Assembly (NCBI GenBank): GCA_029641185.1
Contig: JAPWGK010000035.1
Coordinates: 186,001-250,000 of the forward strand
Length of the DNA: 64,000 nt
Direction of reading: 5' to 3'
Source: Pseudofabraea citricarpa
Taxonomy: Eukaryota; Ascomycota; Leotiomycetes; Helotiales; Dermateaceae
Shown: positions 23,692-26,601 of the stretch, one piece after another
Position numbering within the stretch: the first letter of the stretch is position 1
How the letters are laid out: each line of letters begins with the position of its first letter
The notes under the pieces: model-generated
What the model saw: only the letters and a program-made list of their open reading frames with translations
Told to the model about the DNA's origin: nothing
Databases searched by the model: none
Translations under genes and position numbers: made by a program

Positions 23692-24160
23692 TCCTTTCTT
23701 GGGGGCCAGTCCCCAAACCCCCAGTGTCGCTGCGCGAAGCCTTTACAAGCAGAGAACTTCATCATGAACCAATCTTCTCTCCCTCCTCTCACGAGATGTT
23801 TGATTTGATGTTCTCGCCACCCTCACGTGCTCATCCAAACTCACTTAAGCGAAGCATCGAACATCGCGAGTCTCGCTAAGCGACAGATGTGGAATTTCAC
23901 AGCACCGCGGCAAAAGACAACTCCTGTATCGCCAGAACAAAAATATACATCTTCAACATGGCCAAAAGAGGCAAAAGAAGCAAAATATGATGAGAGCGGC
24001 AGGATTCGAACAATGAACATCAGAATAGCAACTGCCGCAGTTTTTGAATTTCCGTTCCCATTCTTTTGAACTTACAGCGTGGTCACTCACCTCTTCTTGA
24101 TATTACATGTGATACAGCCGCACAGCACAACGGGGGTTTGGGGGCTGGCCCTCATGAAAG
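23692..24160. mobile_element. MITE-like element with ~35-40-bp imperfect inverted repeats
   Basis: The left arm (ctttcttgggggccagtccc, then caaaccccc) matches the reverse complement of the right arm (ctttcatgagggccagcccc, then caaaccccc) with few mismatches. The enclosed 400 bp has no ORF, so a non-autonomous transposon is possible; no target-site duplication was recognised. Confidence 0.4.
23991..24012 (-). other. tRNA 3'-end-like fragment
   Basis: The minus strand reads gttcgaatcctgccgctctc then a, a B-box/T-arm plus acceptor-like end almost identical to the 3' end of the tRNA-Leu gene at 24377. No matching 5' half was found, so this is probably a relic or chance resemblance. Confidence 0.3.
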
Positions 24161-24363
24161 AAAGAACAAAACCTAACGATAAACCTGTCCTACTACAGTG
24201 TACAGCCCTTAGTACATCCCAGCTTGCTATTATTCATCCTTGGAAATCAGTGTACCTCGCTTCGCTTGGCCCCACGTAACCTTTTTAATCCAAAAAACAA
24301 AAGACAAAGAAAAACATAACCTCAAGTAAGGATTGACAATCGAATACGTCAGCAAAAAAAAAC

Positions 24364-24370
24364 AAAAAAA
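24364..24370 (-). terminator. Pol III terminator of tRNA-Leu
   Basis: A run of seven T on the minus strand starts seven bases past the tRNA 3' end, matching a normal RNA polymerase III stop signal. Confidence 0.6.
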
Positions 24371-24376
24371 GAATAT

Positions 24377-24531
24377 TGAGAGCCGCAGGATTCGACTGTT
24401 GTTGTGTTAGAATTATTTTAACTGTTGGATGGATGATGGTACTTACACCTGCGCGGTTTCCCACTGCGGATCGTTCATGTTTCCTTTCGGAAGACCTAAA
24501 CACAGCGCCTTAACCACTCGGCCAGACTCCC
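24377..24531 (-). tRNA. tRNA-Leu (anticodon TAG) with two insertions, one in the T-loop
   Basis: Minus strand from 24531. Acceptor GGGAGTC pairs with GGCTCTC (24378-24384, two G-U pairs). The D arm TGGCCGAGTGGTTAAGGC contains the A box. Anticodon stem CTGTG, loop TTTAGG then C, anticodon TAG at 24496-24498. A 25-nt intron (24470-24494) sits after position 37 as usual in fungi, and the 3' stem CGCAG pairs with CTGTG. The variable arm TGGGAAACCGC can form a GAAA-capped hairpin. T-arm: GCAGGT, then a 51-nt insertion (24396-24446), then TCGAATCCTGC; exact removal gives a perfect five-pair stem with loop TTCGAAT and a consensus B box. The predicted mature tRNA is 79 nt with A73. It resembles the fungal tRNA-Leu(UAG) consensus at both ends. 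A functional gene or a pseudogene are both possible. Confidence 0.75.
24396..24446 (-). other. GT-AG intron-like 51-nt insertion inside the tRNA T-loop
   Basis: It begins gtaagtacc, contains ttctaac 11 nt before its end, and ends caacaacag. Size, donor, branch site and acceptor all match spliceosomal introns of this genome (44-80 nt, gtaagt, ctaac, cag). Its boundaries fall exactly where excision restores the canonical T-loop. Confidence 0.75.
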
Positions 24532-25242
24532 TTAAACAATGGTTGGTTGTTGGTTGTTGTTGGAGTCGATTGCCTTATTTTCAAATATGTACGGCGTTTG
24601 TGCCTAGTGGTAAGCGAAACCTAGGGTTATCCCTTGGCAGCTGACATTGGTTGATTGGCTAGTGGCTCTTACGATGTAGTGTCACCTTGCCTAATAGACT
24701 AGTATATTAGCAGAGAGCTAGAACTCGGTCTCTAGCATGGGAATAGCCTGATTAGAGCCAATATTGAGTTTGTTTCTTAATGTAGCTTAATTTCTTTTTT
24801 CTCTTAGCACATGTTCAATTAGTTACTTCCTCTATGACTGGATGACGCCAAGCAATTGTCGCTCTTGTGCTAAAGTGATAACCACACTCCAGCACAATGC
24901 GACGGTGTGACCACGAAGCCATCTTTATTGGTTTAACTTAGCCATATACTATCTTCCGCTCTTAATAGGAGTCATTTTTCTATGACGCGATTGTGGGCTG
25001 ACAACCCCTCCTTAGTATAACCAACAAACAGTAAGCTAAATTGTGCTGTCATACTCTTGGTTTGCCAAGTCCGTGTTCTTCAGCAGAACCATTGCCAGAA
25101 TTTAGCGGCGGGTCTATGCCCGCACCCTGGCCCGGCCGCGATACTCCCTCCTCCAAGCCTCGACAGCTCAAAAAAGGCTTCAGAAATATTCACACCTCAC
25201 CTTTCTCACCGCCAGTCGTTCTCGCGCGTCTTGTTTCTCGCA
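24532..25242. promoter_or_regulatory. Divergent region between tRNA-Leu and SEN54
   Basis: About 710 bp; contains the SEN54 promoter and leader. An open frame runs into SEN54 from 25057 but starts at a TTG codon and is Pro/Ser-rich, so I treat it as 5' UTR. Nothing else seen. Confidence 0.5.
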
Positions 25243-26601
25243 ATGGCAGACATTGACGAAGATGCGCCTGTCACCTCCCTACACAATCAACCAAATGAGG
25301 ACAATGACCCCAGCGACGAGACACAAGATTTCCGGTTCATCGCAGCCTTGACAGGAAAATCCGGCGCGCAAATCCCCAAGAGAGGAGAGAAGGACTTCGA
25401 GCCGCACGGCACGAAACAACAAGATGGGATTCTCGACGCGAGCCGGCAGGCAATGCACGATGTGTTGGATCATACCAGAGTTCACATTCCGAAAGGATAC
25501 GTGCGAGGGTTTTACTATGGCAGCGCGGAGGATTGGGAGGACGAGGCATTGAAGAGAGAAGGTAGGAAAGGCTTGTGTGACGACCATGTGGTTGTCGCCG
25601 AATCCACTAAAGGACCGCATTTCAGAATCGCAGGCAAGACGCCTCTTGGGGTACAAGGCGCAAGGCTGTGGCTCCTCCCAGAAGAAGCGCTATACCTGGT
25701 TGAAAGAGGGAACTTGGACTTGTGGTGGCCTGCCCGGAAGACAAGTGCTTCGGACACACAGAAGTCTGAGGAGTTCGGCGAACAGGAATCGGAAGCAGAG
25801 GAAAAAGATGAGGGTGTGCCAATGAGTCTTCAAGCAGCATACGCTATTCTCCTTGGCGGAGATGGTGAGCAAGGAAGACTCAGCTTAGAAAGATACAGTG
25901 TCTACGCAAACCTTAAAAGGACAGGTTATGTTGTGTTGAGAGCTCCAGAATGGGACCCTAACTTCGTTAGCTTACCAGCCGAAGGTTCCCAAGAACCCTC
26001 AAGTCTCTTTCGCAAGCTATTCGGCACTTACTTCTCAAAGAAAGAAATGCAGCATTCTCCGCATGGCCCGCTGGTCAAGCCGGGGATGTATAGAAATTAC
26101 AACTCTATCTATCAGCAGATCGCCATCATCCCAAGACACAAACCCTCCGAGTTCCCACTACACCCCTCACCAGCACCGGCAGATCCCTTCCGTGTCGTCT
26201 TTCACGTTTACAAACCCATCAACATCCCTACCTTTAGCAAGAGCAATCCCGGAGAGCCTGATTTTCGGGTTGCGGTGATCAATGCTCGTACAACCTCAAT
26301 CCCGACGTTGAACGAAATTAGTGGCCTGCTGGAGAGCACACCTTGGGATCCTCCGAAAGAGGATTTCAAGACACCGGCCAAAACGTACCAGCGGCTGAGA
26401 CATGGTTACCGAAATGTAATATTAGCGGTGGTTGATCAGGGCATCATTAGCTATTTACGCGCAGGCGAGACGGCATTTGGGGAAGAAGAAATCTACCAGC
26501 GATTTGATCGCGGTGCACCACAGGGATCTAAACGAGGTGGTGGGTGGCGAGGAAGAGGTCGCGGTCGAGGGCGAGGAGGCAGAGGGCGTGGAAGAGGCTA
26601 A
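25243..26601 (+). CDS. SEN54: tRNA-splicing endonuclease subunit Sen54
   Basis: Single exon, 452 aa from the first ATG (MADIDEDAPVTSL); upstream in-frame sequence has no ATG. The Sen54 N-terminal domain is clear: DFRFIAALTG, KRGEKDFEPHGT, VLDHTRVHIPKGYVRGFYY, then GPHFRIAGKTP and RLWLLPEEALYLVERGNLDL. A central acidic linker is followed by the structural C-terminal part (FHVYKPINIPTF) and a final GR-rich tail of about 25 residues. Family knowledge: Sen54 is a structural subunit of the Sen2-Sen34-Sen15-Sen54 endonuclease that removes the anticodon-loop introns of pre-tRNA. It lies next to an unusual intron-bearing tRNA-Leu gene, which is suggestive but may be chance. Confidence 0.92.
   Translation: MADIDEDAPVTSLHNQPNEDNDPSDETQDFRFIAALTGKSGAQIPKRGEKDFEPHGTKQQDGILDASRQAMHDVLDHTRVHIPKGYVRGFYYGSAEDWEDEALKREGRKGLCDDHVVVAESTKGPHFRIAGKTPLGVQGARLWLLPEEALYLVERGNLDLWWPARKTSASDTQKSEEFGEQESEAEEKDEGVPMSLQAAYAILLGGDGEQGRLSLERYSVYANLKRTGYVVLRAPEWDPNFVSLPAEGSQEPSSLFRKLFGTYFSKKEMQHSPHGPLVKPGMYRNYNSIYQQIAIIPRHKPSEFPLHPSPAPADPFRVVFHVYKPINIPTFSKSNPGEPDFRVAVINARTTSIPTLNEISGLLESTPWDPPKEDFKTPAKTYQRLRHGYRNVILAVVDQGIISYLRAGETAFGEEEIYQRFDRGAPQGSKRGGGWRGRGRGRGRGGRGRGRG

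Follow-up and report, generated by a model that had tools for sequence, protein, structure and literature searches.

The analysed window, a stretch of 64,000 nucleotides from the 43.99-Mb assembly (43 contigs) of the ascomycete Pseudofabraea citricarpa, contains on its minus strand a tRNA-Leu(TAG) gene that is interrupted twice (Table 1). A 25-nt intron occupies position 37/38, as is characteristic for introns of the Sen type, whereas the second insert of 51 nt is located away from that site, in the T-loop at 54/55. The T-loop insert starts with GTAAGT and ends with CAG, and the branch A of a CTAAC motif is the 11th nucleotide from its end. These are the donor, acceptor and branch site that an earlier note on this DNA had named, and the T7 run that it regarded as a Pol III terminator follows the gene as well, itself followed by a T9 run.

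Table 1. Features of the tRNA-Leu(TAG) locus (positions within the window).
Feature	Position	Strand	Remarks
Complete tRNA-Leu(TAG) gene with two introns	24377..24531	minus	155 nt, mature 79 nt; ARAGORN after deletion of 24396-24446
Exon 1: acceptor 5' strand, D arm, anticodon 5' stem, TAG anticodon	24495..24531	minus	
A box, TGGCCGAGTGG	24514..24524	minus	intact, judged by the A-box consensus
Anticodon-loop intron, canonical, Sen type	24470..24494	minus	25 nt, site 37/38; ARAGORN
Exon 2: anticodon 3' stem, variable arm, T stem 5' strand, first T-loop base	24447..24469	minus	
mRNA-type GT-AG insert in the T-loop	24396..24446	minus	51 nt, between T54 and T55; splits the B box
Branch site CTAAC and 3' splice site CAG of the T-loop insert	24396..24410	minus	
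Exon 3: remaining T-loop, T stem 3' strand, acceptor 3' strand, discriminator A	24377..24395	minus	
T7 run, then T9 run	24353..24371	minus	Pol III terminator-like; 3' of the tRNA gene
A+T-rich stretch TACATATTTGAAAATAAG	24574..24591	minus	-60 to -43 of the tRNA gene; weak

In its unspliced form the gene escapes detection. ARAGORN called no tRNA either in the window or in the unspliced gene, and with Rfam nothing was matched in the window at gathering scores, nor within 24351-24560 at E values up to 1. The earlier note had suggested comparing the gene with and without 24396-24446, and upon deletion of this segment ARAGORN did call tRNA-Leu(tag) with a 25-nt intron at 37/38, a full cloverleaf, a consensus T-loop and all stems intact. 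Excisions of 51 nt shifted by -1, +1 or +2 were likewise accepted by the program, so the cut site is fixed by the T-loop consensus and not by ARAGORN. Among all excisions tried, with starts from -8 to +14 around the donor and ends from +30 to 11 nt before the gene end, GT...AG removal alone restored GGTTCGAATCC, and exactly this one regenerated the T-loop consensus GCAGGTTC[AG]ANTCCTGCGGCTCTCA. ARAGORN and the excision scan thus confirm that a 51-nt GT-AG insert sits in the T-loop beside a normal 25-nt anticodon intron, and that its exact removal restores the T-loop, both as originally described. The predicted spliced junction (24447/24395) would join GCAGGT to TCGAATCC. When both strands of the window were scanned for stretches of 50-55 nt that begin like a donor, end in AG and place the branch A of a YTNAY motif 10-12 nt before the end, 4 of 767,370 fitted, the T-loop insert included; in the shuffled window it was 3 of 384,000.

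Introns of mRNAs were predicted by joining open frames across a GT...branch...AG stretch. In the window alone this delivered 10 introns versus 1 in reversed sequence, which was too few, so the procedure was extended to the loci that were read, and here 51 introns were predicted versus 10 in reversed sequence. Their sizes peak at 47-53 nt (18 of the 51 measure 48-57 nt), in line with the claim that the 51-nt insert has the size of an mRNA intron in this genome. GTAAGT is the commonest donor (19 introns) and the commonest branch spacings are 10 and 11. Since the search preset the donors (GTRNGT, GTAAGC, GTAAAT), the branch (CTRAY) and the size (42-120), the agreement in motifs is partly given by construction; the agreement of inserts and mRNA introns in main size and spacing is not.

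That the insert is an isolated oddity can be dismissed, as six tRNA genes together carry eight GT-AG inserts away from the anticodon site, and the U6 snRNA gene carries three more. The tRNA hosts are Leu(TAG), two Ser(GCT) genes, Arg(TCG) with two inserts, Thr(AGT), and Ala(CGC) with two. A D-arm pattern with at most 3 mismatches gave 26 places, all of which were fetched. Four Ser(GCT) genes are found among them, two uninterrupted and two on contig 42, each with a 54-nt insert on the 5' side of the anticodon stem. The Arg(TCG) gene on contig 5 carries inserts of 50 and 51 nt and a 28-nt anticodon intron. Two further hosts were obtained by reading B-box places (107 matches in total, 100 of them listed and 86 of those read): Thr(AGT) with a 55-nt insert in the D-loop, and Ala(CGC) with a 50-nt insert in the D-loop and one of 52 nt in the acceptor 3' strand. 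Within the sequence read, Leu(TAG) is the sole tRNA gene for which we observed a GT-AG insert in the T-loop.

All 11 inserts measure 50-55 nt, start with GT within one base of GTAAGT and end with AG, as expected of U2-type spliceosomal introns. Each has a branch-like A in a YTNAY motif 10-12 nt before its 3' end, ten of them detected by the scan pattern; the branch site of the Ala D-loop insert, TTTAC, was missed by this pattern and identified by eye. Once spliced, the stems of the Leu, Arg and Ser tRNAs are paired. ARAGORN identifies the spliced Thr gene as Thr(agt) with a stem mismatch at 50-64 and the spliced Ala gene as Ala(cgc) with a mismatch at 6-67, and because of these mismatches in two of the six hosts some of the interrupted genes may be decaying. 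In Ala(CGC), the program treats 16 nt as a variable arm and arrives at a mismatched anticodon stem, whereas by eye the same 16 nt were read as an anticodon intron, with this stem paired. When the six hosts were submitted unspliced, ARAGORN did not call Leu and Ala, misidentified Arg, Thr and one Ser, and misplaced the intron of the other Ser; tRNA finders would thus miss or misname genes with such inserts. In the non-mitochondrial sequence read, ARAGORN called 70 distinct tRNA-like genes (identical copies merged, some calls possibly false), including both Ser, the Arg and the Thr hosts. GT-AG inserts outside the anticodon site are therefore present in 6 of about 72 tRNA genes read, a partial and non-random sample made up of pattern hits and one family search (RF00005), which missed many isoacceptors.

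The inserts in U6 snRNA are 55, 50 and 52 nt long, the second being located in the catalytic core between ACAGAGAAGA and TTAGCATGG; the match itself scores 33.2 bits and is thus below the gathering threshold of 44 bits. The gene lies at C2:955395-955830 (L156, L155, L157), and its first insert contains an A-box-like TGGCGCAACTGG. No long insert was found in the 40 listed matches to 5S rRNA (119-120 nt for 120 model positions) or in the sole match to SRP RNA (268 nt for 293 positions), so the trait is not general to Pol III genes. The matches to RNase MRP RNA (C12:1716426-1716897, 472 nt for 266 model positions) and RNase P RNA (C5:174083-174457, 375 nt for 301 model positions) leave room for possible inserts.

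Some other tRNA loci are worth recording. Loci L116 (C7:82034-82831) and L124 (C11:111203-111513) comprise four tRNA-like genes whose variable arm forms a hairpin on TTCG, whose D arm is unusual and whose anticodon region contains a long stem. At L081 (C3:1287764) the 3' half of a tRNA-Arg(TCT) was observed, the 5' half of which was not found in the 3-kb locus. A group of tRNA-Arg genes (three tcg, one acg) occurs twice on C12 in mirrored arrangement, at 2.6-3.9 kb and 114.0-115.3 kb (L005-L010, L027, L028).

The two interrupted Ser(GCT) genes allow a view on the age of the inserts. Their exons are identical (28/28 and 53/53, together 81/81), whereas the flanks show a gapped identity of 0.51 on each side versus 0.50 for a shuffled flank. 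Both introns retain a GTAYGT start and the end ACTAACATTCATSAAG; in the 28 nt past the donor, 6 positions agree without gaps, and with gaps 16 of 36 (0.44). Since exons and splice signals have been preserved, whereas neither the flanks nor the intron middle exceed chance identity, we read these introns as old and working. Judged from the two copies, the conservation looks like the outcome of selection. Exon-only gene conversion may be considered as well; it would need to spare the intron middle.

A second Leu(TAG) gene was searched for in several ways. None was found by DNA searches of the genome (run with no positive control), among all 26 places of the D-arm pattern, or in 7 of 24 places read from another D-arm pattern. 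A pattern of T arm and acceptor with at most 3 mismatches gave one hit, which is not a second gene: its T stem is paired at 4 of 5 positions and ARAGORN calls no tRNA at the locus. The earlier note had reckoned with several intact Leu(TAG) genes as a sign of a pseudogene; within this partial census no second gene appeared. Concerning other leucine isoacceptors, ARAGORN called Leu(AAG) at four loci (L072, L125, L144, L151), and by our own reading Leu(CAA) is present three times (labelled Val), Leu(CAG) at L051 (labelled SeC) and Leu(TAA) at L158 (labelled Gly). Since an AAG tRNA with inosine might read CUA as well, the Leu(TAG) gene need not be essential.

Regarding transcription, TATAW occurs at -90 to -30 in a fraction of 0.33 of 58 upstream stretches; after shuffling, the mean is 0.21 and the maximum 0.38, so the signal is weak. 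The A+T-rich stretch upstream of tRNA-Leu(TAG) is no TATAW match itself but lies within -60 to -31, where TATAW is commonest before tRNA genes of this genome. Divergent from the tRNA gene and about 710 bp apart from it is the gene of Sen54 (25243-26601, plus strand), whose protein is 85% identical (369/433) to Sen54 of Phlyctema vagabunda, a member of Helotiales. Sen54 is a subunit of the tRNA splicing endonuclease. The adjacency is probably a coincidence, and a regulatory link between both genes was set aside as there is no evidence for it. An origin inside a host mRNA was rejected too: no stop-to-stop ORF of at least 120 aa overlaps 23809-25020, and Sen54 starts at 25243 on the opposite strand. 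A non-coding part of a Pol II transcript may come into question.

Taken together, the T-loop insert is best explained as a spliceosomal intron, and its host as a working nuclear tRNA-Leu(UAG) gene that is apparently present in a single copy; at least six tRNA genes of this genome carry GT-AG introns away from the anticodon site. We assign a probability of about 0.8 to this reading, which the sequence features and the other cases in the genome support well. The weakest link is the expression of the Leu gene, because the intron, as had been noted, splits the B box, which leaves TFIIIC without a contiguous internal element, and the best other match within 24200-24700 reaches 8/11, a background score. 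A dead gene, silenced by a reverse-spliced intron and hence a recent pseudogene, would fit the split B box, and according to PMC4090602 eukaryotic tRNA genes with insertions in the D or T arm are regarded as pseudogenes in most cases. Against such a recent death, which the earlier note had brought up, stand the failure to find another Leu(TAG) in the partial census and the intact stems and anticodon intron of the gene; the Ser(GCT) pair, moreover, retains exons and splice signals despite its diverged intron middle and flanks. We therefore regard it as unlikely.

The two remaining explanations are far less probable still. A relaxed Sen endonuclease could remove the inserts although they lie outside the canonical site. 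Red algae and nucleomorphs offer precedents, since non-canonical introns exist in Cyanidioschyzon and in nucleomorphs according to PMC4090602 and PMC3978253. The GT-AG ends and the branch motif 10-12 nt from the end are left unexplained by Sen, however, and at none of the 11 inserts do the ends pair to the 4-bp central helix that, together with two 3-nt bulges at the cut sites, makes up a bulge-helix-bulge (best 3/4, with no positive control for this search). An introner-like mobile element, i.e. one intron family spread by DNA copying and likewise proposed in the earlier note, would fit the many similar-sized inserts across unrelated genes. It is equally improbable since a genome search at E <= 0.001 revealed no near copy of the Leu insert, and the intron middles do not form a family: of 55 pairwise comparisons the best has z = 4.2 (U6 intron 2 and Arg intron 2, with an 8-nt word in common, seen by eye) and the next 3.0.

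If the insert is a spliceosomal intron, Pol III would transcribe tRNA-Leu(TAG) by means of the A box, the T-run terminator and perhaps the upstream A+T-rich element. The earlier note had supposed that a spliceosomal intron in a tRNA would require Pol II transcription or a cross-talk between pathways. Pol II is not needed, since U6 of S. pombe is a Pol III transcript whose intron is nevertheless removed by the spliceosome (PMC8917221). The major spliceosome would excise the T-loop intron first, because the T arm would be needed for the fold used by end processing and by Sen. Next, Sen would cut out the 25-nt anticodon intron and a ligase would join the halves. As to their origin, the introns would probably have been gained by reverse splicing into Pol III transcripts and subsequent return to DNA, a route proposed earlier for U6 introns.

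It appears from this pattern that the mRNA splicing machinery also contributes to tRNA production. It is likely, though with less assurance than the intron's nature, that the spliceosome is indispensable for processing at least one tRNA isoacceptor, Leu(UAG), whose gene is apparently present in a single copy, and that the pre-tRNA passes through two unrelated splicing systems in order. If true, a further, spliceosomal class of nuclear tRNA introns would exist, and the textbook divide between tRNA splicing by Sen and ligase and mRNA splicing by the spliceosome would fail in a fungus. Spliceosomal introns could then enter tRNA genes and persist there, a split B box would be tolerable and Pol III freed from a contiguous one, and the supply of tRNA would be linked to spliceosome activity. 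The genome also makes it possible to test whether introns are gained by reverse splicing into Pol III RNAs. Eukaryotic tRNA genes are limited to one intron according to the 2021 tRNAscan-SE paper (PMC8450103), with two or three introns per gene given for some nucleomorph and red-algal exceptions in PMC4090602; Arg(TCG) and Ala(CGC) of this genome would have three each. Further literature cited is PMC10484740, PMC11782384 and PMC8216456. A search of an open-access library with few subscription papers, in which most entries were judged by their titles and the opening of their abstracts, gave no report on spliceosomal introns in tRNA genes.

The kind of intron is a known one, and tRNA genes are a new class of host genes for it. 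Canzler (2016) reportedly deals with introns of U6 and Bhattacharya (2000) with those of rDNA. The tRNA introns of nucleomorphs and Cyanidioschyzon likewise occur in D and T arms and several per gene; they are of the BHB type or insertions of 3-24 nt, and GT-AG ends with a branch site are not described in the sections of PMC4090602 consulted. Spliceosomal introns in ascomycete 18S rDNA (cited in PMC11889510) also represent mRNA-type introns in a gene that is not made by Pol II, but here the transcript is that of Pol I and no tRNA. Fungal U3 snoRNA shares ordinary GT-AG introns in a structured RNA gene; however, it is not a tRNA, and of 138 introns, 133 are situated in the 5' half of the host structure. 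The introns in U6 snRNA of S. pombe and other fungi are again GT-AG introns in a small Pol III RNA. What differs from U6 is the host described here, a tRNA, for which the nuclear introns known so far are substrates of a protein endonuclease. In addition, an internal promoter element is split by the insert, and one transcript would be handled by two splicing systems.
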